In this document: positions 1 to 13,102 of the stretch, one piece after another
Layout: each line of letters starts with the position of its first letter
Position numbering within the stretch: position 1 is the stretch's first letter
From: Pseudomonas sivasensis
GTDB lineage: Bacteria > Pseudomonadota > Gammaproteobacteria > Pseudomonadales > Pseudomonadaceae
Assembly: GCF_013778505.1 (NCBI RefSeq)
Contig: NZ_JAAOWU010000022.1
Span: forward strand, 1 to 64,000
DNA: 64,000 nucleotides
Direction: 5' to 3'
The notes under the pieces: generated by a model
Told to the model about the DNA's origin: nothing
The model's database searches: none
The model's input: only the letters and a program-made list of their open reading frames with translations
Program-made: the position numbers and the translations under genes

Positions 1-918
1 GGATTAAGGGGATAGGGGAGATTTTCTCATGGCGCAACCTCCTTTATTGATGGAGTCGCCATGCATCGCTCCTAAACGAAAGAAGTGGCGACCGTACGCG
101 GGTTGCCAGACCAATAATCAACGAGCCCGGCGAATCCGAAAATGCCCCACGCACAGCGGCCACAAGGCGTATTTTCCAACACCTCCATTGCGTGGAAAGG
201 TCTACCGGCCAGCCCTTTCTTCCCTTAGACAGTCACCCGGTGGTGATTCGGCCCCAGTCCATAGGCAGCGCGTAAATATTGTCAGGGGGCATCACTTGTT
301 GGCTCGGTTGACGGAAGTGACATCACGGATGGTTCGTCCGCCTATGTCCGAAACGGCCGCGATTCAATAAGTCGGAGTCGGAGGCAACCGACGGGTGAGA
401 TTTAGACCGGGATCCATTAAGAAGGCCGCGCAGCCCTCACTCTCATACCAACTGCAAGGCGTTTGTCCGGTTAGGTATGGATGATGAGCGAACCGGTCGC
501 TTTCTATTTACTCGGGGGTACAAAACGACGGCATGTTGACTGACGTTCTTATCCGTCAGGTCGCCGGGGATGTCTTCCGAGGCTTCGAGCCACAACGCCG
601 GGACCACGTCACCGTTGGTGCTTCATACGAAATCATATTCACGGGTCCAATCGAAGGTGATTTGGGGGGCTGGCACCGTTTTGTATGGGCCAAAGAGCCA
701 GTTCAGAGAGAACGTTGCTTTGGGACGGGTATGGCACCGTCTGATAGGCGTAAAAGATCTACGGGTTTGTGGAATTGTTGTGGAGGGTTAACGGGGGAAA
801 GGCGTAGCTGTGTTCACCGGTACCCGTATGGATCGAATGATCTGTGGGAAATTGAACGCTGCAGCTTGCGGAGTGGGTATTGGGTGGGTGTCGCAAGTGC
901 TGTAATGCTTGAACTCAG
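1..918. other. Stretch with no recognised gene left of the island
   Basis: Open frames here (the longest about 143 codons, at 533-964) have no recognisable domain, no good ribosome binding site and run through the att repeat, so I do not call a gene. There is no second copy of the ssrA 3' end in this stretch. By the geometry of the insertion it should be the chromosome that originally followed ssrA, or the edge of an older decayed element. Confidence 0.5.
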
Positions 919-975
919 TGGATTTCAGGCACAAAAAAAGACGTCCGTGGACGTCTTTAGATGATGAAGTGGTGG
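919..975. repeat. Distal att site: 57-bp copy of the ssrA 3' end and terminator
   Basis: A perfect 57-bp direct repeat of 12655-12711. It contains the last six bases of ssrA (TGGTGG on the plus strand, that is CCACCA of the RNA) and the ssrA terminator palindrome around GACGTCCGTGGACGTC. Beyond base 975 the similarity to the T-arm of ssrA continues imperfectly. This marks the far end of the integrative element; the intact ssrA is at the other end. Confidence 0.9.
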
Positions 976-1043
976 GCCGGGGTAATTTGAAACGGTAATT
1001 TATCCTATTGATTATTATCGTTAATATTAGTTTTGTATTTTGA

Positions 1044-1065
1044 TTGGAATACCAATTGGAATACC
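1044..1065 (+). repeat. Left GGAATACC repeats, probable integrase arm sites
   Basis: Two tandem copies of TTGGAATACC in a very AT-rich stretch about 70 bp inside the left att repeat. The same octamer occurs three times next to the right att site (12543-12592). Paired arm-type sites near both ends are typical of tyrosine-integrase elements. The binding role is inferred; the repeats are seen directly. Confidence 0.6.
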
Positions 1066-1210
1066 TCACGAAATAGCATTCCATTGACCCTCGCTTGTAT
1101 TCGATCTGAAAACCTTGCTTCGCATCCATGATAAGCAGTGATCTTCTTACAGCGGTCGGGACAACAGGTAGCAATCGATCCGAGTCGGAAGGTGGCGACA
1201 GGCAGAAACC

Positions 1211-1396
1211 GGCCGATTCTGTTGAAAAAGTCGGCCATGGTTTGCGCATCAGAAAAGTACGCGTCCGAGATTGAAATCTTTACTTTTGGCAGGGGCTTCC
1301 GGATTCGGACTTCACGTAGCCGCGTGCAAAAAAGGCGTTTTCACCAGTCAATGATCAGGCAGTTTGGGCAGACCGACTTTTCCAACAGAATCGGCC
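1211..1396. mobile_element. 186-bp inverted-repeat relic (MITE-like or IS remnant)
   Basis: A 24-bp segment at 1211-1234 (GGCCGATTCTGTTG, then AAAAAGTCGG) recurs inverted at 1373-1396 with one mismatch. The 138 bp between have no convincing reading frame. Segments like TTCTGTTGAAAAAGTC are common near the ends of insertion sequences in pseudomonads, from memory. No transposase and no clear target duplication are visible, so this is either a miniature element or debris of an IS. Confidence 0.45.
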
Positions 1397-1609
1397 AAAA
1401 GCTGTCAGTCAGAGGTGCAAGATTTGGGTTCTAGCCCACCTATTTTTTGACAGGCAAGCCACCGTTAGCTGCGCGGGTTTGTGTCAGCCAAAAAAACTTG
1501 GACGGAGCGACATCATATTGCTATCTTTCGTCAAGATTTAAGTTCAGAGTAAAAACGTAATGTTGGAATTGGTCTCATCGGCAGAACACGTCAGCATGCA
1601 ATTAGCTCT
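1397..1609 (+). other. Upstream region of the HXS operon
   Basis: About 210 bp between the inverted-repeat relic and hxsD, AT-rich and without a supported gene. The operon promoter should lie here, because there is no coding gene on this strand further left. I see no -35/-10 pair good enough to name. Confidence 0.4.
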
Positions 1610-1933
1610 TTGGAATGGAGCCAATGTATAAAGCAAATCAATGGAATGTTGCCCGTGACGAATATCAATCTCATCTATCCTGAGTCATCTCCGGCCAAGC
1701 TTTGGGTAGATATCAACCGCCCTTTATCGCTTGCTCTTCAAGCTGAATTGATTCATAGAGGGTACGAGTTGCGGCAGGTGGACGCGGGCCTTCAGGCGCT
1801 TTGTTCAGAAAAATCGAACATTCCTACGTTCAATGAGCTTTTGACGCAACTGTTGGATGACGAAGTTACTCGTAGGAAAATTCCACTAAATACATTAGTG
1901 CGGCTGGATATGTTTATGGAGGCCTCTGAATGA
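1610..1933 (+). CDS. hxsD: His-Xaa-Ser system protein HxsD
   Basis: A 107-aa cytoplasmic protein, the small accessory member of the HXS locus. The family is described by a signature LLNDYxLRE near its C-terminus (family knowledge from memory); the matching stretch here is LLDDEVTRR at residues 81-89, a partial match. It sits first in the operon and its TGA overlaps the ATG of hxsB (ATGA). The start is uncertain: TTG at 1610 gives 107 aa, and the first in-frame ATG at 1646 gives 95 aa; neither has a strong Shine-Dalgarno. Its role is unknown; it may be a recognition or chaperone component for the radical-SAM enzymes. Assignment rests mainly on context with hxsB, hxsC and hxsA, which are much clearer. 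Confidence 0.75.
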   Translation: MEWSQCIKQINGMLPVTNINLIYPESSPAKLWVDINRPLSLALQAELIHRGYELRQVDAGLQALCSEKSNIPTFNELLTQLLDDEVTRRKIPLNTLVRLDMFMEASE

Positions 1934-3375
1934 ACGCTAACTTCGTTGTGGGAAGCCTGCTGCCATTCGGTTTTCATCGGCTCGACGATCAGTCCGTTGT
2001 AGCCGTTAGTGCTGCAGGTGACCATGCCTTTTTGACGCAACAGGAATTGTCGGCTCTAGTCCAAGCACCTGAAAAATTAGAGTTCAAAAAGCGCGCGGAA
2101 CTACAATCTAAGTATTTTTTGACCGGAAAAAGTTCTTTCGGAACTCTAGAGCTATTACGATCACGAATAGCGGCCCGGAAAGAAACTGTATTGGCAGGTC
2201 AGTCTTTGCACATAATTGTGCCTACCCTTCAATGCGAACATTCTTGTCAATACTGCCAAGTCAGCAGACGTCTTGAAGATGTGGGTCATTCAATGACCCC
2301 AATTCAGATTGATGCTGCTTGCGCGACTATTTTTCAAAGTCAGGCCAATGCTCTGACAATTGAGTTTCAAGGTGGCGACCCGCTGCTCCGTTTCGATCTT
2401 ATTCAACGAGCAATTGATCTTATTCAAAAGATGAATCTGGAACACAAGCGCCGTATTCGTTTCGTGGTTGCATCAACGTTGCACCAATTAACCTCTGGAA
2501 TGTGTGAGTACTTTAGAAATAATCAGGTCTACCTCTCAACGAGCCTTGACGGCCCGGCGACGTTGCACAATAAAAACCGCCCATTACCATCGCGTGATTC
2601 GCATGCCCGGACTTTGGCAGGAATCGAACTGGCACGGCGTATCATGGGGCCACACGCGGTTGCAGCATTGATGACCACAACTAAAGCCTCTCTTGCGTAC
2701 CCTGAGGCCATTGTGGATGAGTATGTAAAAAATGGATTCACCGAAATTTTCATACGACCGTTAAGCTTGTATGGATTTGCCAAACGCAACATCAAGCATT
2801 TGGGATACACCCTTCCAGAGTTCACAAACTTCTATCAGAAAGCTTTGCATCGTGTCTTAGAATGGAACGCCAGAGGTACTGAGTTGCGTGAAGGTACCGC
2901 CGCACTAATTTTTAACAAACTTTTATCACCCTTCGATGCGGGTTACGTCGATTTGCAAAGCCCGACAGGGTCTGGCCTTGCTGTTCTGGTCTACAACTAC
3001 GATGGTTATGTCTATCCAAGCGACGAGGCACGGATGCTCGCCGAAACGGGAGATTGTTCTTTGCGTTTAGGTTCTATTGGTGAGTCCCTTGCACAGTTAA
3101 TGACTTCTCCTGTCATGAGGCAGCTGATAGAAACAAGTATTTCTACTCAAGCAGTGGGCTGTGAAATTTGCGCGTTCAATAGTTTTTGCGGGCCTGATCC
3201 AGTGGGGGCGCAAGCTGAGTTTGGTGACATGAGGACTGTTGCTTTGCTTACTGAACACTGCAAACGATATAAATGGCTCTTCGAATACTTTTTTCGTAAG
3301 TTACGAACTGCCGACGACGATTTTCTCGATATTGCCTATCGCTGGGCTCACCCCGCTGGATATTCTGATGCGTAA
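1930..3375 (+). CDS. hxsB: His-Xaa-Ser system radical SAM maturase HxsB
   Basis: 481-aa radical-SAM peptide maturase. The [4Fe-4S]-SAM motif CEHSCQYC is at Cys102, Cys106 and Cys109, followed by a radical-SAM barrel with EFQGGDP as the GGEP-type SAM-binding segment. The C-terminal region has a SPASM-like cysteine cluster (Cys411, Cys414, Cys420, Cys444) for auxiliary Fe-S clusters, as in enzymes that crosslink ribosomal peptides. Start ATG 1930 overlaps the hxsD stop by 4 nt. The next gene hxsC starts inside its last codons. Expected substrate is HxsA, encoded two genes downstream. The chemistry (crosslink, cyclophane or other) cannot be read from the sequence. Confidence 0.9.
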   Translation: MNANFVVGSLLPFGFHRLDDQSVVAVSAAGDHAFLTQQELSALVQAPEKLEFKKRAELQSKYFLTGKSSFGTLELLRSRIAARKETVLAGQSLHIIVPTLQCEHSCQYCQVSRRLEDVGHSMTPIQIDAACATIFQSQANALTIEFQGGDPLLRFDLIQRAIDLIQKMNLEHKRRIRFVVASTLHQLTSGMCEYFRNNQVYLSTSLDGPATLHNKNRPLPSRDSHARTLAGIELARRIMGPHAVAALMTTTKASLAYPEAIVDEYVKNGFTEIFIRPLSLYGFAKRNIKHLGYTLPEFTNFYQKALHRVLEWNARGTELREGTAALIFNKLLSPFDAGYVDLQSPTGSGLAVLVYNYDGYVYPSDEARMLAETGDCSLRLGSIGESLAQLMTSPVMRQLIETSISTQAVGCEICAFNSFCGPDPVGAQAEFGDMRTVALLTEHCKRYKWLFEYFFRKLRTADDDFLDIAYRWAHPAGYSDA

Positions 3376-4549
3376 GGTCCGTGTACGAACGCATGGCGTT
3401 GGATATCGAACAGTAGCTAGAGTCATTTCGCTCGAGAATTTGAGCGCGCAGTGGCGACCCGAATTGAGATTTTTAGTGAGGGCCGCAGATGCGGAGGGGA
3501 TCACCAAAGTTGCGCAACTGCGTAGTGCTGGGCTAACCAACCTAATTTTACTGACACCTAATCTCCATGCCGCAGGCCAATGGCAGGCAGAGACTGTGGT
3601 TGAAACCGGCGGCATTCTGATGGACGAAGACGTAGTAGCCGTCGCCGACCACATGAATCACGCGCATGTCCTATTTCGGTATACAGACCAGCACCACACT
3701 GTTTTCCTCACCAATCGGTGCAATAGCTATTGCCTAATGTGCTCGCAGCCCCCGACAAAACATGACGATAGCTGGTTGGTGAACGAGGCGGTAGAAGTCG
3801 CCAATCATATAGCTAGCTCTCCGCATACATTGGGATTTTCCGGAGGAGAGCCTTTGTTGCTGGGTGAGCATCTGCGTCTAGTGCTTGATACCTTTGCTCA
3901 TCAACATCCTAGCACTCGGTACGACGTGTTGAGCAACGGCAGGCTGTTAGCTGATCCGATCTATGCTGAGCACATGTTAAAGGGGTTGAGTGAGCGCGTG
4001 ACATGGATGGTGCCGCTCTATGGGCATGCTGACTTTCTACATGACTTTGTCGTGCAGAGTCCGGGGGCATTTGAGGAGACACTGGCTGGTCTATTGAATC
4101 TTCGTCGATTTGGGCAAGCCGTTCAGTTGAGAATTGTGCTGATTCGCCCTGTTTTGGAAAACCTTGCAGCGCTTTGCGAATTCATTGGTCGTAATTTGCC
4201 TTTCGTCCGTGAGGTCGCATTAATGGCATGTGAACCCATTGGCTTTGCTTTGGCAAACCCTGAACTGACCGACATTGACCTTCGAGACTGGAGCACGGAG
4301 CTCAGTCACGGCTTCAGGACACTGAAGCGAGCGAAGGTACCTGCCATTTTGATGAATGCCCCACTCTGCGCTCTGCCACAAACTCTGTGGCCGTATGCAC
4401 ACAAAAGCATCTCCGATTGGAAACGTACGTTTGCTGAGGACTGTGCTACGTGCAGAGTGAAAACAGAGTGTGCAGGCCTTTTCTCATGGCATCACCCAGG
4501 TAAACATTCGATGAAAATCCAAAAAATTGAAGGGATTATCAATGTCTAA
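3368..4549 (+). CDS. hxsC: His-Xaa-Ser system radical SAM protein HxsC
   Basis: 393-aa second radical-SAM enzyme of the pair. The cluster motif CNSYCLMC is at Cys118, Cys122 and Cys125, then GFSGGEPLLL as SAM-binding loop. A C-terminal Cys-x2-Cys-x5-Cys cluster (359, 362, 368) suggests an auxiliary cluster. The first about 110 residues before the motif are an N-terminal extension. I chose ATG 3368, which overlaps the hxsB stop by 8 nt (ATGCGTAA); an open frame extends back to 3239 inside hxsB but would give an improbable 130-nt overlap. Its own stop overlaps the start of hxsA in exactly the same 8-nt fashion. Two different radical-SAM enzymes acting on one precursor is the defining feature of HXS loci. 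Confidence 0.88.
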   Translation: MRKVRVRTHGVGYRTVARVISLENLSAQWRPELRFLVRAADAEGITKVAQLRSAGLTNLILLTPNLHAAGQWQAETVVETGGILMDEDVVAVADHMNHAHVLFRYTDQHHTVFLTNRCNSYCLMCSQPPTKHDDSWLVNEAVEVANHIASSPHTLGFSGGEPLLLGEHLRLVLDTFAHQHPSTRYDVLSNGRLLADPIYAEHMLKGLSERVTWMVPLYGHADFLHDFVVQSPGAFEETLAGLLNLRRFGQAVQLRIVLIRPVLENLAALCEFIGRNLPFVREVALMACEPIGFALANPELTDIDLRDWSTELSHGFRTLKRAKVPAILMNAPLCALPQTLWPYAHKSISDWKRTFAEDCATCRVKTECAGLFSWHHPGKHSMKIQKIEGIINV

Positions 4550-5171
4550 ATTCATCACGTCGCTGTCAGCATTCATTGCCGGAACTTCTTTGGTGAACAC
4601 GGATGTGCAAGCCCTGGAGCAGGGGCTGAAGAACCCTTTCGGCAGCAGACTCGATCCGGTCAGCTTGCGTCCGCTTAACATGCCCGGCGATAACCTATAC
4701 GCAGCCCATCGATCCCACTCGTCACATTCCTCGCATTCATCTCACAGTTCAGGAAGCGGTTCCTACTCTGCTCCAAGCCGGACTTACACGGCTCCAAGTA
4801 AGACTTATTCCCCCCCTAGTCCTGCCTATTCAGCACCAAAAACACCTTACTCGAGCAACTTTGGAACGAGCGGTTCGAACAGTCTTGGTGGTTCCACCGG
4901 TAGCCGCAATCCTGTAGACGCAGGAAGGCCTTCGACAGTCAGCCCCATCAGCTCAGATTTCGATCCTAATAATAAAAAACTCATGGAGCTAATTCGGCGC
5001 GTACAGATGGGTTTGATTATCAAAGGTTATGAACCTGGCACCATAGACGGCGTGATGGGCGAGCAAACTCGTTTGGCACTGAAATTATTCCAGTCTCATA
5101 ACAGCTTGCCTGCAGATGGCATGATGGGTACGCAAACACTGAACGCCTTAGGCGTGATTGTTCCCAAATGA
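4542..5171 (+). CDS. hxsA: His-Xaa-Ser repeat protein HxsA, substrate of the system
   Basis: 209-aa secreted-type protein. An N-terminal hydrophobic segment (residues 4-18) with VQA at 22-24 looks like a signal peptide. Residues 56-70 are five consecutive His-Xaa-Ser triplets (HRS then HSS four times), the proposed modification site. Residues 75-103 hold five tyrosines spaced exactly seven apart (75, 82, 89, 96, 103) in a Ser/Ala/Pro-rich linker. Residues 147-203 are a peptidoglycan-binding type 1 domain (motifs GYEPGTIDGVMGEQT and LPADGMMG). ATG 4542 is preceded by GAAGGGA at good spacing and overlaps the hxsC stop by 8 nt. Inference: a modified repeat displayed on, or bound to, the cell wall. 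Confidence 0.9.
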   Translation: MSKFITSLSAFIAGTSLVNTDVQALEQGLKNPFGSRLDPVSLRPLNMPGDNLYAAHRSHSSHSSHSSHSSGSGSYSAPSRTYTAPSKTYSPPSPAYSAPKTPYSSNFGTSGSNSLGGSTGSRNPVDAGRPSTVSPISSDFDPNNKKLMELIRRVQMGLIIKGYEPGTIDGVMGEQTRLALKLFQSHNSLPADGMMGTQTLNALGVIVPK

Positions 5172-5563
5172 ATCATAAGGTCTATAGATATATTCGATTT
5201 TGGGCTCCCGTGATATCCGTGATCGGACTGGGCTTCATTGTCTTCCATGATTATGTTCGACCGCTTATTGCCGAATATAGTCACGGTGATGAGTACAAGC
5301 GACTCGCTTTAGAGTGCGACCTGGCAATGCATGAGGAAGCTGCGCTACGGGGATTGATCGGAAATGATCCACAGTCCGAACGTCTCAGGTTAAGTGCAGA
5401 CGTTGGGATGATGGTCTGTCACGACTACGACATACTTCGTAAACAGCTATTAATTCAGGGTCTATCAGAAGACCAACTGGCGATGTTAGGCCTGGAGGTA
5501 CTTGAAGTAGAACAAATCACGGTACAGCAGATGGTCGATGCTCATCGCATGGATAGATTTTAA
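5168..5563 (+). CDS. HXS-associated small membrane protein
   Basis: 131-aa protein with one N-terminal membrane segment (residues about 9-28) and a charged, mostly helical C-terminal part expected outside the inner membrane. It contains two cysteines in the soluble part (LECDL, MVCHDY). HXS loci often carry an uncharacterised protein at this position (TIGR03982-type, from memory), and the context fits. ATG 5168 overlaps the hxsA stop (ATGA). It could tether or present HxsA or the MauG-like protein at the membrane, but no function is known. It is not a recognisable enzyme. Confidence 0.75.
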   Translation: MNHKVYRYIRFWAPVISVIGLGFIVFHDYVRPLIAEYSHGDEYKRLALECDLAMHEEAALRGLIGNDPQSERLRLSADVGMMVCHDYDILRKQLLIQGLSEDQLAMLGLEVLEVEQITVQQMVDAHRMDRF

Positions 5564-5564
5564 T

Positions 5565-6929
5565 ATGAGGAAGTCGATTCTTACGTATTTTATTTTCCTC
5601 TCCTGGATTAGCCATCTGCAGGCGTCGCAACTTAACCATGAAGATCAACTTCTGAGGAAAGTGCTCACTGCCTATCGTGTTGAGCCCATGACTACCAGGC
5701 CGTTGTTCATGGGGCCGAAGGAAAAGTTAGGGCAGATGCTGTTTTTTGATCCCGTCATGGGGGGGCCAAACAACACGACTTGCGCGACTTGTCACGTCCG
5801 TAGCAAAGGCAGTGTTGACGGGTTGCCTATGGCTGTGGGTATCGGCTCAAGCGGAGTGGGAGAGCAAAGGCTTCAATCTCCAGAAGCTTTTGTCATACCC
5901 AGAAATGTGCTCCCGTTTTTTAATCGTGGAGAAAGCGATTTTACCGCTCTATTTTGGGATGGACGAGTACAGTTGGGTGAAAATGGGAATTTTGAATCGC
6001 CTATGGGTAATAAACTGCCAAAGGGATTCGAAAATCTACTTGCCGTCGCAGCAAGCTTTCCCCAAGTTGAACCTGATGAGATGCTGGGCCGATCTGTACG
6101 CCGCGGAGGTGAGAACCAAGCCACCTACCATGCGGATCTAGTCGATATGACAGTCGACCCTGACAACTTTCAAGAGCGGACATTGAATGTTTATAGTAAT
6201 TTGGTTAAACGTTTGTTAGGCACTTCGGCCGCCTCGACCCCTATGCAATCAGAATATAGAAAACTCTTCCAATCAGCTTATCCGGCTACAAGCGAGTTTG
6301 ATATTACTCATATTGGCAATGCCTTGGCAGCTTACATTTCCTTGGCGTTTCAGCTTAAGCCAGCAGCTTGGGATAGCTATGTAAGAGGAGAAATCTCCGC
6401 TTTATCCCAGCAGCAAAAAAAAGGAGCGATGATTTTCTTCGGGAAAGGGCGCTGTGCGGTTTGTCATACAGGTGAGGAGTTCTCGGATTTTAAATATCAC
6501 GGACTTGCCGTGCCGCAACTCGACGTTGGCAAACACGGAGGTTATTTAGATTATGGAAGGGCAAAAGCGACGGGGTTGGCCATAGATCGCTTTCAATTTC
6601 GCACTCCACCGCTACGTAATGTTACGCGCACTGGGCCATGGGGGCACAACGGTGTATTCACATCCTTGGAAGAAGTCATTAGTCATCACTTCAACCCCAT
6701 TCCATTAATGTTTGCCGCGCAGAAAGGCCGACCTCGCGAAGCGGAACTCGCGGGGCGGCTGCTGAGGTACCGCTCCCCCATCCTTGCCGAGATCTACCCG
6801 ATGGCGCCAAACGACGTGGGGGCAGTCGTCGCGTTTCTAGAGGCACTGCAATCAGATCCTATTTTGTCAACTGATGAAGCTCTGCCTAAATCAGTCCCCT
6901 CAGGGATGAATCAGTTCATTGTTGAATGA
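5565..6929 (+). CDS. MauG-like di-heme c-type cytochrome of the HXS system
   Basis: 454-aa periplasmic di-heme protein of the cytochrome c peroxidase/MauG superfamily. Signal peptide at residues 1-20 (LTYFIFLSWISHLQA). Heme motifs are CATCH at 73-77 and CAVCH at 297-301; the stretch FRTPPLRNVTRTGPWGHNG is typical of the C-terminal half of this family. MauG itself oxidises tryptophans of a precursor protein to make a quinone cofactor, so a post-translational oxidase acting on HxsA after export is a reasonable inference. ATG 5565 was chosen over an in-frame ATG at 5538, because only the former puts the signal peptide at the N-terminus; it lies one base after the preceding stop. Confidence 0.85.
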   Translation: MRKSILTYFIFLSWISHLQASQLNHEDQLLRKVLTAYRVEPMTTRPLFMGPKEKLGQMLFFDPVMGGPNNTTCATCHVRSKGSVDGLPMAVGIGSSGVGEQRLQSPEAFVIPRNVLPFFNRGESDFTALFWDGRVQLGENGNFESPMGNKLPKGFENLLAVAASFPQVEPDEMLGRSVRRGGENQATYHADLVDMTVDPDNFQERTLNVYSNLVKRLLGTSAASTPMQSEYRKLFQSAYPATSEFDITHIGNALAAYISLAFQLKPAAWDSYVRGEISALSQQQKKGAMIFFGKGRCAVCHTGEEFSDFKYHGLAVPQLDVGKHGGYLDYGRAKATGLAIDRFQFRTPPLRNVTRTGPWGHNGVFTSLEEVISHHFNPIPLMFAAQKGRPREAELAGRLLRYRSPILAEIYPMAPNDVGAVVAFLEALQSDPILSTDEALPKSVPSGMNQFIVE

Positions 6930-7072
6930 ATCGCACTGCGCAGAACCGAAAACGTCATCGTCCAGGGGACTTTCAGGAAGCGTTTGAGGCCGGTTTTCTG
7001 CTGCGTTTGCAGCAGACGCTGCTCAACCTTCGTGAAGCTGCTGTATCCCGATCAACAAGTTTCGATGCTTGA
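6926..7072 (+). CDS. 48-aa ORF coupled to the MauG-like gene, unknown function
   Basis: ATG at 6926 overlaps the MauG-like stop in an ATGA arrangement, the same coupling seen for the other HXS genes. The product starts MNRTAQNRKRHRPGDFQEAF: residues 3-12 are strongly basic and residues about 14-40 form a predicted amphipathic helix (EAFEAGFLLRLQQTLLNLRE). There is no signal peptide and no cysteine. A strong hairpin follows 20 bp after the stop. I do not recognise the family. It may be a regulator or accessory peptide, or a chance frame; the coupling and the terminator position argue for a real gene. Confidence 0.5.
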   Translation: MNRTAQNRKRHRPGDFQEAFEAGFLLRLQQTLLNLREAAVSRSTSFDA

Positions 7073-7091
7073 GACTTTGCTTTTCCCGCCA

Positions 7092-7135
7092 AACCCTCTG
7101 ATCAAGCGATCTTTGATCGCGCCGATCGGAGGGTT
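7092..7135 (+). terminator. Nested hairpin closing the HXS operon
   Basis: AACCCTCTGATC at 7092-7103 pairs with GATCGGAGGGTT at 7124-7135 (one G-U pair). The loop contains a second hairpin, GCGATC-ttt-GATCGC. GCTTTTTG follows about 6 nt later. Position 20 bp after the last coupled ORF suggests the end of the operon transcript. Confidence 0.65.
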
Positions 7136-7356
7136 CACTCGCTTTTTGTCGAAGGCACTTCGTTCCATCCTTCCATTTCAAATTTGATTAGCGTCACTCC
7201 TCTTTTACCCATCAGTAATTGCCCTCAATCTCTGTCAAGTGCAACGCAGTTTCAGCATTAGAACCGAGCTTGTCGTAGAACTATGTCTAGAGATGTGGCG
7301 ACTCCGGCGACAGCGGCGACAACCCATGCAGCACGGGGCCTGGAGCGTGGCGACAA

Positions 7357-7377
7357 AAGTGGCGACAGTCGCCACTT
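7357..7377. repeat. Perfect palindrome containing the dispersed GTCGCC motif
   Basis: AAGTGGCGAC and GTCGCCACTT flank a single central A. The right 16 bp (7362-7377, GCGACAGTCGCCACTT) recur exactly at 11210-11225 and with one change at 9593-9608. The T-run that follows could let it act as a terminator, but the recurrence suggests a protein-binding site. Confidence 0.6.
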
Positions 7378-7664
7378 TTTGCACGCTTTGGCCGTGACGC
7401 TTGACCGTCTTTTCGAGTGGGTATAAAAATTGGTGCACGGACCGCTGTTGTTGACAGCACCAGCCCAGGTAGCCAGAACCTTTAAGGCTACGCCACTTGC
7501 GTGGTGGTTCTCCCGAAGTGCGATTAGCGTCCGGCGGCTCGCACGGTCACTCCCCAAGAGTGATGGATGCCCACTCGACTGATCTGCCCTCTGCGGCAGA
7601 CGATGAACCTTCCTCGCTGCGCTGCAGCAACCTCACCTTTCGGCACACTTCGTTGCGCCAGACT

Positions 7665-7699
7665 GCGCCCGTCTCTTTCTGCTGGAAAGAGACGGGCGC
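7665..7699. repeat. 15-bp perfect hairpin
   Basis: GCGCCCGTCTCTTTC at 7665-7679 and its exact complement at 7685-7699 with loop TGCTG. No T-run follows on either strand, so it does not look like a normal terminator. It lies about 430 bp before the yfjI-like gene. Confidence 0.65.
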
Positions 7700-8124
7700 T
7701 CGTACCACTGCTGCAAACCACGCCGTACAAGGCATTGCCGCAACTCTCCTCGTGACAATCGGCCTGACAAATCTGATTCGTCGCCATCCGCATCGATACA
7801 GGCACCGGTGCCGCAGCCTTTGGAAGGGCTGCACCTGACTGACAGTCAGGCATGCCCCAGGTGTCCATGTCGTTGCCTTCTCCTGCTCAGGATCTCCAGG
7901 TGCCGAACTCGTCAGTGTCGGCACAGCCTCCACCCGCCCGCATCTTCGGATGCGACTAAGGAGGCCAGATTCATGGGTTCATGCCCTCGCTCCCGGTCGT
8001 AAGGAGCCGTGTGTTCCGCGTCAGTGAACACCTCACAGGCCGCAGGGGCCTTGATCCCTGATAACACTCAACAGCCGTGGCGGGACTACGTGAGGACAAC
8101 CAGCAATTACCGAGGAGAGGGCCC

Positions 8125-9517
8125 ATGCAGCAGTTAGATCCGAAGCTTGAACTACCACGACCGCCTCGACCGCTGATTGAGTCAAACCCCGTGGCCGAGC
8201 CTTATCCGGTCCAGGCACTGGGTGGAATTTTTGGGCCTGCGGTTGAGCGCATGGCCGAGGTCATCGGCGTGCCCCAGGCACTGGCCGCACAATCGGTCTT
8301 GGCTGCCTCGGCGCTAGCCACTCAAGGTCATGCGGGCTTGCAACTCGATGGACGAAATTACCCCCTGTCGCTGTTCCTGATTACAGTGGCCGCGTCAGGT
8401 GATCGCAAGACCGCGGCAGATCGTTTTGCATTGCTGCCAGCACGGCAATGGGAGCGTGAGCAGTGGCAGCGCTACCGTGAACAACTCGCCCGGTACCGTG
8501 TCGCGCAGCGGCAGGCGCAGCGTATCAACCCTGGCTATCCCGACCCCACAAACGGCGTACCGCTTGAAGCGGAGCCCTCTGCACCTAGGCTGATCACCAC
8601 GGATCCGACTATCGAGGCCCTGATCAAGGGACTCTGCCATGACTTGCCGAGCATGGGCCTGTTCTGTGACGAGGGGGGACAATTCCTCGGTAGCAGCACC
8701 ATGAGTCGAGATAACCGTTTGAAAGCGGTTACGACCTTGTCGTCACTCTGGGACGGCAGTCCGATAGATCGCGCGCGGTCCATGGTGGGTGAAAGCTTGC
8801 GAGCTTACGATCGACGCTTAAGCCTGCACCTGATGCTGCAACCGTATCTAGCCATGCAGTTACTCAGTGACCCGTTGCTGCTGGGGCAAGGCATTCTCGG
8901 TCGCTGCCTCATGACCTGGCCCACCAGCCTGGCCGGACAACGCAGTTACCAGGCTGTCGACTTGTCCAAAGACCCCGCCCTAAAGCGATATCACCACCGT
9001 CTTTCGGCCCTGTTTCATCAGCCTTGGTCGCTTTCCGCTGACGGTGCCTTGCGGCTGTCACCGCTGAGCCTCAGTCCACTGGCTCGTCGTCGCTGGATTG
9101 ATCTGCATGATGCCATCGAGGCCCAGTTGGGTGAGTTTGGCGAGTTGGCCAGCGTACGGCCTAGCGGATCGAAGGCCGCCGACGACCTGCTGCGCGTCGC
9201 CGGCAATCTGGCAGTCGTGGAGGAGAGCAGCGTCGTGGAGGTCGATCATATCCAACGGGCCTCGGCCTTAGTCGGCTATTACCTCTCCGAGATCCAGCGC
9301 CTGACCGAACAGGAACCGGTGTGCCGGGTAAAAGAGGAGGCAGACCGGCTGCTGCGCTGGCTGCAGGTCAAAGATTGGAAGCGCTTCAGTATTCGGGAGC
9401 TGAATCGCAATGGTCCCCGATTTGCCCGTAAGAGCAGTCGTCATGCCGCCAAGCTGTTGGTCGAGTTGATTGATCATCAGTGGCTGAGCACCGACGGTTG
9501 TACCTTCGAGGTGCGCC

Positions 9518-9531
<14 letters not shown>
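8125..9531 (+). CDS. YfjI/DUF3987-type protein of the island
   Basis: 468-aa protein resembling the YfjI (DUF3987) family of mobile-element proteins, which are related to primase/helicase ATPase modules. A degenerate P-loop SGDRKT is at residues 91-96 after the hydrophobic strand LSLFLITVAA, and an acidic segment FCDEGGQFLG is a Walker-B-like candidate. The C-terminal about 70 residues look like a winged-helix (FSIRELNR...ARKSSRHAAKLLVELIDHQWL). ATG 8125 is preceded by GAGGAGAGG; the longer frame from GTG 8077 has no such site. Followed by an overlapping small gene. Likely involved in replication or maintenance of the element; not demonstrated. Confidence 0.75.
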
Positions 9532-9863
<332 letters not shown>

Positions 9864-9880
<17 letters not shown>

Positions 9881-10844
9881 GCGAGCGGGACGTAATTTTG
9901 GCTTCGGTCGCCAGCTCAGCTATGCCGGACCGCAAGCACTGAGAGATCTGTTTGGCGACGGCCATTTTGCTACCGTCAAAGCCCATAGCGATCGCTGGCA
10001 GGCATTCGTGCGTTGGTGTCGATCCGAGGAAGGGCCAAGGCTCAATGACGCGCGACAGATCGACCGCGAGATCCTTATGCGGTACGCCTTCCATTTGCGC
10101 GAGCAGGTTGATCAGGGCAACGTCGGCATCGCCACCGCACAGAACCGCCTGTCCAGCGTGAACCGAACGATGGCCGCGCTGCGCGGTGATCAGTACGTCA
10201 AAATCCCCAGTCCGAGCAAGGCGCTTGGCTTGCAGCGCTCAGGTGTGCGTAGTGAGGCCCCGCAAGGCCAAGACCGTGTCCAGGTCGAGTTGATCACACA
10301 GGCGTTGTCAGAGCGAGGCCAGCAATCGAGGGTGAGTGCCATTGTGCTCCTTGCTCGGGAGACCGGCATGCGCCTGCGTGAAGCGATCTTGGCGGACTTG
10401 CCCCGGCTGCAACGTGAGGCTCGGCTACTGGGCAAGATCAATATCCAGGACGGCACCAAAGGCGGTCGATCAGGCGCATCTGCACCGCGTTGGATTGCGG
10501 TCACGGATCAAGTTCGTGGCGCCCTCGACAGGGCCAGCGAGGCTTCACCCAAGGGCAGTCGGAATCTGTTAACACCTGATGAAAGCTACAAAGATTTCTT
10601 ACAGACAATCGTGCGACCGGCACGGGACATCCTGCATGAGCATGGATTGAAAGGCTTTCATGAACTGCGGGCGGCTTACGCCTGTGAGCGCTATGAGCAA
10701 CTGACCGGCTTCTCCGCGCCCATCAATGGCGGTCGTGGTCATCGAGACGATCGAGCACTCGATCAGCGTGCACGCCAGCAGATCAGCCACGAGTTGGGGC
10801 ATAACCGCATCGACGTGGTGAGTGCCTACATCGGAGGTCGTTGA
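9864..10844 (+). CDS. Integrase-domain protein (tyrosine recombinase fold)
   Basis: 326-aa protein with a full tyrosine-recombinase catalytic set: Arg170 (ETGMRLRE), Lys199 (DGTKGG), His266 and Arg269 (FHELRAAYA), His313 (ELGHNR) and Tyr322 near the C-terminus (VSAYIGGR). The N-terminal about 120 residues are a SAM-like DNA-binding domain. It is unlike the P4-type integrase at the island end and lies in an operon with the yfjI-like gene, not beside an att site. Such internal integrase-like genes are common in Pseudomonas islands, from memory. ATG 9864 gives a 17-nt overlap with the preceding gene; longer frames start deeper inside it. It may resolve multimers or act on another site. Confidence 0.75.
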
Positions 10845-11113
10845 TGAAGTCCGAGTTCGATATGGCGTTGTTTCTGAGTCCCGTGCTCAAAGGTGCGCAT
10901 GCCACGCGGCAGCGGCATATCAGGCAGGCAGAAAGGATGCACAAGGCGATTCGTGAGCGCTGGAGTTGTGCGACCCCCTGGTCCTGGAAGGAAAAGCACA
11001 CCAGATGGTTTTTAGAGCACTATCTGCGTTGCTCAGCACCAGCGACCGTCTATTACTATGAGTTAACAGTAGGGCTGATCCGCCGCAGAAAGGCGCAACT
11101 CGTGGTTGTCTGA
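10844..11113 (+). CDS. 89-aa island protein, unknown
   Basis: ATG 10844 overlaps the stop of the integrase-like gene (TGATG). The product is basic and aromatic-rich (RHIRQAERMHKAIRERW, WSWKEKHTRWFLEHYL), with a central region that resembles a helical DNA-binding or recombinase-accessory fold, but no family is recognised. It ends the yfjI-like operon, 19 bp before a perfect inverted repeat. Possibly an accessory factor of the preceding recombinase. Confidence 0.6.
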   Translation: MKSEFDMALFLSPVLKGAHATRQRHIRQAERMHKAIRERWSCATPWSWKEKHTRWFLEHYLRCSAPATVYYYELTVGLIRRRKAQLVVV

Positions 11114-11131
11114 TAGACGCTTTTAAGCGTG

Positions 11132-11176
11132 AGCCCCTGAGTATGGGAATGCGGAGCCTTCCCATACTCAGGGGCT
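11132..11176. terminator. 18-bp perfect inverted repeat between convergent genes
   Basis: AGCCCCTGAGTATGGGAA (11132-11149) and its exact complement (11159-11176), loop of 9 nt. It sits between the 89-aa gene and the convergent integrase. No long T-run follows, so it may be a bidirectional hairpin terminator or a binding site. Confidence 0.6.
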
Positions 11177-11209
11177 TGGCCGAAGAAGCGCAGGCATGCG
11201 GCAGATTTA

Positions 11210-11225
11210 GCGACAGTCGCCACTT
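11210..11225 (+). repeat. Third copy of the dispersed GCGAC-W-GTCGCCACTT motif
   Basis: GCGACAGTCGCCACTT, identical to 7362-7377, located downstream of the integrase stop. Further TCGCC hexamers follow to about 11260. Confidence 0.6.
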
Positions 11226-11261
11226 CAGTCGCCCTGCTGCACGACACGGATTGTCGCCGGC

Positions 11262-12518
11262 TCAGCGTATCGGCACGACGTTACGGTCCCTGGTTTGATT
11301 GATGGCGGATGCCGACAGGCTGCCGGTGGCTGCCTTCTGGATATGTTCACTCCACCAGGCCATCATCGGACGCCGGCGTTCGATGTAATCCGCCCGGTTG
11401 TAGGCGCTTCGAACTTCGTCTTTATCGACATGCGCCAGCGCGACTTCGATCAGCTCCGGATCCCATCCATGTTCGTTCAGGATTGTGCTGGCCATGGAGC
11501 GCATTCCGTGGCTGACCAAGCGGTCCTGAAAACCCATTCGTTTCAACGCCATGTTGGCTGTTTGGCTATTCGCGTGGGTGCGCGGGTTTCTATCTGACGG
11601 GAACACATATTCCCTGTGGGCGCTATGGGGCTTAAGCGTCTCCAATAACGAGAGTGCATGTTCGGTCAGCGGGATTGTGTGCGGACGACGCTTTTTCATT
11701 CGCTCCGGAGGGATGGTCCAGAGGCGTTTGTCGAAGTCGATATCTGCCCATCGGGTGGTCGCCGCTTCGGAGGGGCGGGTCATGGTGTGCAGCTGCCATT
11801 CGATCAGGCAGCGGGTCGTCCGCTTGATGCTGGCGTTCGCGATTTCCATCATGAGCTCGGGAAGCTCATCAGCTGGTAGCGCGGCCATGTTCTCTTTTTT
11901 GGGTTTCTTGAAGACCGCTCGAATGCCGCTGAGAGGGTTGGCAAAGATCATTCCGGAATTGACCCCGTAGGTCATGATCTCGTTAAGGCGCTGGCTTACC
12001 CGCTTCACGGTCTCGAGGCTACCTTTGGCCTCAATCGGCCGAAGGAGCTTGATGACCATCGGGGCATTCACTTCTGATAGCGGCGTTGATTTCATGCTCG
12101 GAAATACATGCAGCGTGAGTGAGCGCCAGATGTCTTCGGCATACGCCGGGGTGACGGAATCCTTCTTCAATTCGAACCACGCGGTGGCTACGTTCTCGAA
12201 CGTATGTTCCGTTTCCGCTCGTTTGGCTTCCTGCAGTTCATTACGCTGAGCTTTGGGGTCGATGCCCTGTGCAAGCAGCTCTCTAGCCTCAACGGTTTTC
12301 TTTCTGGCTTGCGCAAGAGAAACCTCGGGATAAGAGCCGAGTGCCATGTTGATTCGATTCTTGGTGACGGGATGCCGGTAGTTGAAATTCCACTGCATCG
12401 AGCGATTGACTCTGACACGGAGCTGAAGCCCGTCGCCATCGGTGAGGACGTAATCCTTGTCTCTCGGTTTGATCGCCTTGAGCTGGCGGTCGGAGAGGCG
12501 GGTGGTTTGAGCGCACAT
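11262..12518 (-). CDS. P4-type tyrosine integrase of the ssrA island
   Basis: 418-aa site-specific recombinase. Residues 1-100 are the DUF4102-type arm-binding N-terminus (LTDGDGLQLRV...YRHPVTKNRINMALGSYPEVSLAQAR), then a core-binding domain, then the catalytic domain with Arg248 (MTRPSEA), Lys275/276 (MKKRRPH), His337 and Arg340 (SHGMRSMAST), His363 (ALAHVDKD) and Tyr373 (SAYNRADY). The gene reads away from ssrA, with its start about 190 bp from the intact ssrA 3' end, the usual layout for elements using tRNA or tmRNA attB sites. It should catalyse insertion and, with an excisionase, excision. I see no clear AlpA-like excisionase gene in the island. The whole catalytic set is intact, so the element may still be mobile. 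Confidence 0.92.
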   Translation of the reverse strand: MCAQTTRLSDRQLKAIKPRDKDYVLTDGDGLQLRVRVNRSMQWNFNYRHPVTKNRINMALGSYPEVSLAQARKKTVEARELLAQGIDPKAQRNELQEAKRAETEHTFENVATAWFELKKDSVTPAYAEDIWRSLTLHVFPSMKSTPLSEVNAPMVIKLLRPIEAKGSLETVKRVSQRLNEIMTYGVNSGMIFANPLSGIRAVFKKPKKENMAALPADELPELMMEIANASIKRTTRCLIEWQLHTMTRPSEAATTRWADIDFDKRLWTIPPERMKKRRPHTIPLTEHALSLLETLKPHSAHREYVFPSDRNPRTHANSQTANMALKRMGFQDRLVSHGMRSMASTILNEHGWDPELIEVALAHVDKDEVRSAYNRADYIERRRPMMAWWSEHIQKAATGSLSASAINQTRDRNVVPIR

Positions 12519-12542
12519 GAGAAGTACTCCATGACACTTTTT

Positions 12543-12592
12543 GGTATTCCCAAGATTAGCCCTGGGTAGCCGGGAATACCATTGGGAATACC
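12543..12592. repeat. Right GGAATACC repeats, probable integrase arm sites
   Basis: GGTATTCCC at 12543-12551 (inverted) and GGGAATACC at 12572-12580 and 12584-12592. They lie between the integrase start and the att repeat, so they could also serve autoregulation of the integrase promoter. Matching repeats occur at the left end (1044-1065). Confidence 0.6.
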
Positions 12593-12654
12593 AAATCGCC
12601 TGGAACTCTAAAAACCTCGAAAGCCCCCAATAGCCCTGAAACCCCCGTATTCAC

Positions 12655-12711
12655 TGGATTTCAGGCACAAAAAAAGACGTCCGTGGACGTCTTTAGATGA
12701 TGAAGTGGTGG
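12655..12711. repeat. Proximal att site at the 3' end of ssrA
   Basis: The 57-bp partner of 919-975. It covers the terminal CCACCA of ssrA and the ssrA terminator. Because the island end reconstitutes exactly the ssrA 3' end, tmRNA function is preserved after insertion. Confidence 0.9.
12673..12694 (-). terminator. ssrA terminator, duplicated with the att site
   Basis: AAAGACGTCC (12673-12682) pairs with GGACGTCTTT (12685-12694); reading on the minus strand the stem is followed by a run of Ts (12675-12669). The same terminator is present in the distal copy at 919-975. Confidence 0.8.
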
Positions 12712-13102
12712 AGCCGGGGGGATTTGAACCCCCGTCCGCCAGTACTCCGCTGTCGGTACTACATGCTTAGCCGTGTCTATTAAGTTAACCCTCAGCGACC
12801 CGACTGGCAGGGTGCTTTGGGCGAGTTGTGTAAGTTTTAGCCGCTTCGTCCACAACGTACTGCACGGCGATTCTGTTCTATATGACAATCACTTTGGGTT
12901 TACAGACATCCCCTGGTGATTGCTGGACCCGAAGGTACCAGAAGCTCAGGTCTAAGGCTGCTTACGCAGCGATAGCGAATTCCTGGCCGTAGTTTTCGTC
13001 ATTGGCAACTATAAGTAGTTGCAACAGTGGATTTACGAGTTCTGTTACCAACTCGGCATGCACCTAAAGTTTCGCGACCGGCGTCGAATCCTAAACGGCC
13101 CC
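12706..13102 (-). ncRNA. ssrA: tmRNA (ssrA)
   Basis: 397-nt tmRNA. The 5' end GGGGCCGTTTAGGATTCGAC and the 3' end with T-arm GGGTTCAAATCCCCC and encoded CCACCA form the tRNA-Ala-like acceptor domain. The tag reading frame (12962-13006, minus) encodes ANDENYGQEFAIAA and a TAA stop, giving the C-terminal AA recognised by ClpXP. It works with SmpB, encoded about 6.2 kb further on, to rescue stalled ribosomes. The integrative element uses its 3' end as attB. 5' and 3' ends are given as the mature RNA by analogy with known tmRNAs. Confidence 0.95.

Follow-up and report, generated by a model that had tools for sequence, protein, structure and literature searches.

Described systems and the locus

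The His-Xaa-Ser (HXS) families HxsA, HxsB, HxsC and HxsD (TIGR03979, TIGR03978, TIGR03977 and TIGR03976) were reportedly defined by Haft and Basu. An hxs locus with two additional genes, for a TIGR03982 protein and a MauG-like diheme protein, was analysed in a 64,000-nucleotide stretch of Pseudomonas sivasensis DNA (contig NZ_JAAOWU010000022.1, positions 1 to 64,000; hereafter the window); loci compared with it carry L numbers. HxsA, HxsB and HxsC of the window exceed the cut-offs of their models and stand in the usual order, whereas the HxsD position is taken by an open reading frame (ORF; here orfD) that goes unrecognised by the HxsD model. The kind of system has already been named, and it is near certain that the locus adds a member of a rare subtype. 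In the available parts of the sources, hxsA-D are listed among P. aeruginosa ST277 genes (PMC8446631), HxsB is mentioned as an annotated cluster, and HxsB and HxsC are called putative maturases (PMC9062424); no paper with an experiment on an hxs product was found in the literature searched, in which subscription journals are mostly outside coverage.

The triceptide maturases (HaaB, YhhB, GrrM/OscB) are, like HxsB, radical S-adenosylmethionine (SAM) enzymes with C-terminal cysteines, and use i/i+2 motifs with an aromatic first residue; by analogy HxsB may work like them, but it lies far under their cut-offs and is not a member, and HxsA differs as a substrate in being a whole, probably exported, wall-binding protein. 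With MauG, BthA and MbnH the diheme protein of the window has in common the CCP_MauG family, two CxxCH motifs and the Trp of the FWDGR motif, but its predicted sixth ligand is His as against Tyr; an invariant Glu is, we assume, a possible acid-base residue. P4-type elements at ssrA share with the element described here a PRK09692-type integrase, a site at the 3' end of the transfer-messenger RNA (tmRNA) gene and direct repeats, to which the window element adds a DUF3987/Integrase_1 module and the hxs cargo.

Gene content of the cassette

The + strand from 1646 (or a TTG at 1610) to 6929 holds a tight run of six genes in the order orfD-hxsB-hxsC-hxsA-TIGR03982-MauG-like (Table 1); along the operon successive genes share 4, 8, 8 and 4 bases, and a single base separates the last gene from the one before it. 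HXS identities were assigned by NCBIfam model scores against the curated cut-offs. A preliminary description, made from the letters of the sequence, had placed a complete HXS locus at 1610-7072, with two radical-SAM genes (CxxxCxxC and C-terminal cysteines in each), a substrate with five HxS triplets and a peptidoglycan-binding domain, and a MauG-like di-heme protein, and had suggested a search with hidden Markov models. When this search was run, HxsA, HxsB and HxsC passed their own models and the MauG-like protein, with two CxxCH motifs in the same operon, passed that of its family, so the locus is present where it had been placed; the cysteine sets recur in the alignments of both maturases, and HxsA has the triplets and the domain. 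The right end has to be drawn in, as shared cassette homology stops at 6934, and the word complete calls for caution, since the ORF in the HxsD position fails the HxsD model. The TIGR03982 gene is an operon member that had gone unnamed.

By its sequence, the locus is an hxs system of the MauG-bearing subtype, arranged as a six-gene cassette. The order B-C-A-03982-MauG is repeated in Tritonibacter (L144), in genome G920 (L157; HxsA 86.1 bits, below the cut-off of 121.65) and in Thioclava (L145, with hxsB shortened). Ratios of nonsynonymous to synonymous substitution rates (dN/dS) of 0.06-0.37 across 24 comparisons (six genes, window versus L034, L143, L154 and L155) point to purifying selection; the cassette is compact, intact and under selection, and its host genus is tractable. 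Between 1390 and 7250, promoter-like sites (3, versus 6.5 in shuffles) and terminator-like sites (4 versus 6.0) are fewer than expected by chance.

The cassette as cargo of an element at ssrA

The hxs cassette is, by its sequence context, cargo of an element integrated at the tmRNA gene, as had been proposed, with direct repeats, the tmRNA 3' end and a P4-type integrase all present. The element measures 11.7 kb and is bracketed by a 78-bp direct repeat. In P. mandelii RIT-562 (L032) the counterpart is 99.7% identical over window positions 916-12381, up to the limit of the compared DNA, and has a different left flank; P. viridiflava carries the element at 93.5% (L033 and L153, the same record, counted once); window positions 1-914, left of the attachment-site repeat, have no blastn counterpart in the L032 or L033/L153 loci. 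A query with 12400-12900 matched in 22 of 24 genomes (own included): 13 best matches begin exactly at 12706, the tmRNA end, 7 (own included) run through the integrase side and 2 begin between.

The HxsA array and the radical-SAM maturases

HxsA carries its five consecutive HxS triplets at aa 56-70, encoded with mixed codons. Arrays were counted in 70 distinct regions, drawn from 91 ORFs of the window, L032-L111, L143-L150 and L157 (L002-L031, L154 and L155 left out): each in-register repeat His has Ser at i+2 (390/390), a count that is partly built in, as all but one of the 91 ORFs were chosen for an HxS cluster, and the residue at i+1 varies (Ser, Arg, Tyr, Ala and others). Around all 456 His near arrays, Ser was found at +2 in 443, at +1 in 191, at +3 in 58 and at +4 in 243. 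A fixed His(i) and Ser(i+2) with a variable residue between them is the pattern that an i/i+2 cross-link would need, and it gives a definite mass prediction for matured HxsA. The N-terminus of HxsA has a hydrophobic stretch and resembles a signal peptide; together with the peptidoglycan-binding domain this agrees with the exported, wall-binding substrate of the preliminary description. A diversifying bacteriocin was considered for HxsA and rejected, since the dN/dS of hxsA (0.06-0.13) argues against it. In a record of the Leptospira phage LE1 (L150, 5627-8936) the genes are ordered hxsA-D-B-C and the substrate, of 99 aa, has its array near the C-terminus in a leader-core layout.

In HxsB, C102/C106/C109 and C411/C414/C420/C444 are invariant in 50/50 aligned rows; in HxsC, 98% of 88 rows keep C118/C122/C125 and all of them keep C334/C359/C362/C368. 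HxsB matches the models of cyclophane makers (GrrM/OscB 2.7e-18, AmcB 8.9e-16, YhhB 2.8e-9) and stays under each such cut-off tested (GrrM 66.1 of 310 bits, AmcB 57.8 of 425, YhhB 36.4 of 445). It also matches PDB entries 4k36-4k39 (1.7e-6); a PDB sequence search turned up no structure of a close relative of HxsB, HxsC or the MauG-like protein.

The TIGR03982 and MauG-like pair

The MauG-like protein keeps C73-H77, C297-H301 and W131, the Trp of FWDGR, in nine aligned rows, and scores 104.5 bits against the MauG model TIGR03791, far under the cut-off of 443.85, and 108.6 of the 362.85 bits set for MbnH. Its C-terminal part best matches PDB entry 3orv (3.6e-5), which we take to be the Y294H mutant of MauG, followed by 4l1q (8e-5) and 3l4m (8.6e-5), MauG chains with Tyr. 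HMMER pairs His375 with His294 of 3orv and, counted from the shared HNG (HxG) motif, the MauG Tyr and His375 both lie at +14; because of this 14-residue spacing His375 is favoured as the ligand position, so the position of the sixth ligand Tyr294 of MauG is predicted to be His375 here. His occupies it in each of the eight MauG-like proteins from hxs loci that were compared, in a fusion protein of L157 (see below), in 24 of the 27 relatives L116-L142 and in L146, the exceptions being Met in L129 and Tyr in L130; L131 and L162 gave no motif. A match to hxsB or hxsC was found at none of the 28 relatives (L116-L142, L146), most of whose loci are about 4 kb long and hold the near flanks only; being common outside hxs loci, the His marks a wider family and not hxs. 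The 28 relatives belong to a broad diheme group, mostly of family f55, and 25 of them carry His where MauG has Tyr; the one from Phaeobacter (L146) is annotated as a cytochrome c peroxidase. Family f55, which includes G920, may be Rhodobacteraceae, as its diheme proteins resemble those of Phaeobacter.

According to the available part of PMC6405878, Y463H BthA and Y294H MauG lose the near-infrared feature of bis-Fe(IV), and Y463H keeps peroxide reduction. With a His ligand, these mutant data make a bis-His, peroxidase-type enzyme the better guess, and from its sequence bis-Fe(IV) chemistry would not be assumed for the MauG-like protein. The earlier suggestion of a MauG-type oxidation on the substrate accordingly loses ground, since the Tyr294 position reads His in all eight hxs-linked proteins. 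The ligand also indicates with which part of the MauG superfamily the protein is suitably compared.

The TIGR03982 protein has a single N-terminal membrane-like segment (by eye) and two Cys that are invariant in six aligned members. A 557-aa ORF of L157 (5662-7332, - strand) encodes two domains in one protein, the first TIGR03982-like, at 28.3 bits under the cut-off of 40 and, by eye, with both Cys, and the other MauG-like, at 272.9 bits under the cut-off of 340; the ORF lies divergently beside an hxs operon with separate copies of both genes. A plasmid search with the fusion gave one record, aligned only from residue 169 on. In an HxsB tree of 50 rows, built by a quick method, the MauG-type loci (six rows) are split between two branches, which forces two changes; the rows of L144, L157 and L149 are long-branched, and by the warning of the program such joins may be false. 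L144 and L157, whose HxsB is 27% and 30% identical to that of the window, lie on the branch separate from it. The fusion and the two-branch distribution suggest that the TIGR03982 and diheme proteins form one functional unit, a bolt-on pair that was probably either joined to hxs repeatedly or lost many times. A Tyr-rich linker of HxsA was considered as target of the diheme enzyme and rejected, as loci without the gene have Tyr repeats too, whereas 3 of 5 distinct MauG-type HxsA have few Tyr: the 60 residues after the array hold 5, 5, 1, 2 and 2 Tyr in these five, and 4.5 on average (0-8) in 65 other HxsA.

Proposed chemistry and alternatives

Triceptide enzymes form C2(His)-Cβ(Ala), C2(His)-Cβ(Arg) and C4(Phe)-Cβ(Ser) links between residues i and i+2 (available part of PMC11002830). 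On the reading we find most likely, HxsB and HxsC, aided by the HxsD-like protein, would modify the HxsA array in the cytoplasm by joining His(i) to Cβ of Ser(i+2), which would yield as many as five strained rings of three residues, at -2 Da each. Modified HxsA would then be exported and retained at the cell wall via its peptidoglycan-binding domain. On the periplasmic side the TIGR03982 protein might anchor or feed the diheme enzyme, which would apply a bis-His mechanism of the peroxidase type, instead of the bis-Fe(IV) route of MauG, to either wall-bound HxsA or peroxide. The whole proposal, HxS ring formation on a wall-bound HxsA with a bis-His periplasmic diheme enzyme, is held tentatively, as a serious possibility that falls short of an expectation. 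A more far-reaching version, in which His-Ser rings made in the cytoplasm are afterwards oxidised on the wall by the membrane-anchored bis-His diheme enzyme, so that a portable cassette would yield a new kind of redox or metal site, seems unlikely.

Several results weigh against the main proposal. The best non-HxsB matches of HxsB are PapB (2.1e-21) and CcpM (4.2e-20); sulfatase maturases are matched as well (TIGR03942, 1.5e-16), so that ring formation is not the sole reading of HxsB. The four Tyr294 alignments shown shift the gap, with Tyr facing Phe376. No HxsA residue was found that tracks with the MauG-like gene (5 versus 65 HxsA, Tyr counts), and at 1e-3 none of the 77 hxs loci L035-L111, of which 63 extend to 6 kb beyond the start of hxsB, has a match to the MauG-like or the TIGR03982 protein; the pair would thus not be needed for the core reaction. 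Chemistry, moreover, is not visible in a sequence, and both the modification and the role assigned here are suppositions.

Among other readings, oxidation of the triplet Ser by HxsB and HxsC, of the formylglycine or aminomalonate type and with His as recognition residue only, would suit the matches of HxsB to TIGR03942 and to 4k36-4k39 and the Ser fixed at i+2; since His is as fixed as Ser, and tandem triplets are unlike the single site at which sulfatases are modified, we consider it rather improbable. It is also quite unlikely that another radical-SAM change (epimerisation, another C-C bond or hydroxylation of His) makes of the array a metal or redox site in the wall with the diheme protein as electron partner: a dense His array on a seemingly exported wall-binding protein and a peroxidase-type partner with a predicted bis-His heme would fit, but the heme partner is found in 0/77 of the loci L035-L111, and no recurrent metal-handling gene appears among 71 neighbours (best 25 of 55 Pfam and 25 of 82 PADLOC families).

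The pair might, on the other hand, leave HxsA untouched and travel in the cassette as a peroxide-defence module. His-ligand diheme relatives that occur without adjacent hxs (24/27 in L116-L142, and L146) and the hxs loci L035-L111 that lack the pair speak for this, whereas TIGR03982 matches over cut-off occur only beside hxs (295 + 279 genomes) and two separate HxsB branches each include hxs loci with the pair; on balance we regard a separate module as unlikely, though not strongly so. An ordinary chromosomal operon that merely lies near an integrase is hardly credible, being contradicted by the tmRNA-end direct repeat that brackets the locus, by the different left flank of the 99.7% identical P. 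mandelii copy and by the exact start of homology at the tmRNA end in other genomes.

The ORF in the HxsD position

orfD behaves as a gene (dN/dS 0.27-0.37, four comparisons). The HxsD model TIGR03976 matches neither its protein nor anything within its own genome, and scans of model libraries gave no family match for orfD; upstream ORFs tested in L144 and L157 likewise match no model. Against a profile built from 101 HxsD of other loci orfD scores 2.0 bits, its homolog in L143 7.4 and the other homologs 0.4-3.5. When orfD was aligned to HxsD with hhalign, 2/30 column-shuffled controls scored as high; in profile-profile comparison with all HxsD this held for 6/60 (local) and 1/60 (global) controls, and with Acinetobacter HxsD for 12/60 and 25/60. 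A weak AlphaFold model of orfD (mean predicted local distance difference test, pLDDT, 62.1; E31-35 H41-49 E53-57 E60-65 H71-87 E99-103) has the b-a-b-b-a order of a canonical HxsD model (L055, mean pLDDT 91.1; E5-10 H16-25 E30-36 E40-47 H56-94), plus an extra last strand; its matches to PDB folds are all at E 0.18 or worse. By position and predicted fold order, orfD is likely a divergent HxsD. A role of HxsD as a winged-helix recognition element for ribosomally synthesized and post-translationally modified peptides found no support, the canonical model being b-a-b-b-a with a best fold match at only E 0.056.

Other features of the element

Table 1. Features of the hxs cassette and of the element that carries it (window coordinates).
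Feature	Position	Strand	Support or remark
orfD, HxsD-position gene	1646-1933	+	95 aa from ATG 1646; 107 aa from TTG 1610
hxsB, radical-SAM maturase, C-terminal Cys set	1930-3375	+	TIGR03978 549.1 bits (cut-off 370)
hxsC, second radical-SAM maturase, C-terminal Cys set	3368-4549	+	TIGR03977 346.9 bits (cut-off 267.9)
hxsA, substrate protein, 209 aa	4542-5171	+	TIGR03979 156.1 bits (cut-off 121.65)
His-Xaa-Ser array, five triplets HRS HSS HSS HSS HSS	4707-4751	+	
PG_binding_1 domain of HxsA	4989-5150	+	PF01471 6.1e-15
TIGR03982 protein gene	5168-5563	+	90.1 bits (cut-off 40)
MauG-like diheme protein, 454 aa	5565-6929	+	TIGR03981 543.8 bits (cut-off 340); PF03150 2.4e-22
CxxCH motifs of MauG-like protein	5781-5795, 6453-6467	+	
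His375 codon, predicted MauG Tyr294 ligand position	6687-6689	+	alignment
Attachment-site copy (displaced original end), repeat of tmRNA 3' end and terminator	915-991		95% identical to 12651-12728
MITE-like repeat of ~200 bp beside cassette, 24-bp terminal inverted repeats	1198-1404		
DUF3987 helicase/primase-like gene	8077-9531	+	PF13148 1.3e-70; phrog_2373 1e-41
Integrase_1 tyrosine recombinase	9807-10844	+	PF12835 3.1e-7; phrog_1 2.1e-8
90-aa ORF adjoining recombinase	10841-11113	+	same module in L155
P4-type integrase	11262-12518	-	NF007246 482.4 bits (cut-off 434)
Attachment site overlapping tmRNA 3' end	12651-12728		
tmRNA gene (ssrA), integration target	12706-13102	-	ARAGORN

The module at 8077-11113 (DUF3987, Integrase_1 and 90-aa ORF) recurs in L155 in another arrangement, and a P. 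putida plasmid has its first two genes at 66% identity. A plasmid search with window positions 1-1400 matched 17 records, the best 8 of 17 all at the miniature inverted-repeat transposable element (MITE)-like repeat, which in L143 flanks the cassette on both sides.

Contexts and distribution of hxs loci

Homology limited to about 1210/1416-6934 is common to L034, L154, L155 and L143, which differ in their surroundings: a HEPN AbiU2 gene downstream and, by eye, efflux genes in L034 (P. mandelii 6A1), HNH and DUF927 in L154, an SLFN-g3 helicase in L155, and upstream genes matching tail-fibre, endolysin and Rz-spanin families in L143, an IMG/VR contig. Confined as it is to the cassette in different settings, this homology indicates that a 5.5-kb cassette has moved between settings. 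In L143 (54-10599) the cassette stands behind the endolysin and Rz-spanin genes of a phage-like contig.

HxsB was matched in 55 of 398 same-genus genomes at E <=1e-60 (53 over cut-off) and TIGR03981 in 4/398, all four within about 4 kb of hxsB. In the phylum sample TIGR03981 matched in 19/398 at 1e-40, with only the genome of the window over cut-off; TIGR03982 was found in 1/295 in family f55 and in 1/279 in the phylum sample (the window's own). Family f55 (198 genomes) gave no match to the MauG reference at E 1e-100, a search that does not show absence. Among plasmids, hxsB matched 413 records at 1e-30, 317 of them from Klebsiella, and 326 of the 413 are typed as conjugative; two phage records matched at 1e-20.

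A survey of whether HXS loci in pseudomonads are always on islands had been suggested, and has a partial answer: the MauG-bearing cassette does occur in several different contexts, and the setting of loci without MauG resembles a hotspot. For the latter, 36 loci were compared (L049, L051-L083, L085 and L095; 34 labelled Pseudomonas, one Pantoea and one gamma proteobacterium). Of these, 19 have in common a gene on the left flank, by its look one for a LysR regulator, and right flanks vary, so that the site looks like a hotspot of accessory genes. Right-hand neighbours (n = 71; per locus, the first two ORFs that reach 150 aa, less any above 1200 aa) include, among the matches listed, SLFN-g3 helicase (3), YhaV toxin (3), SIR2 (2) and HerA (2); the mad8, AbiO and Nhi models have three members each, perhaps the same three (best 25 of 82 PADLOC families). 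There is some association of the MauG-less loci with defence genes, which is not a rule.

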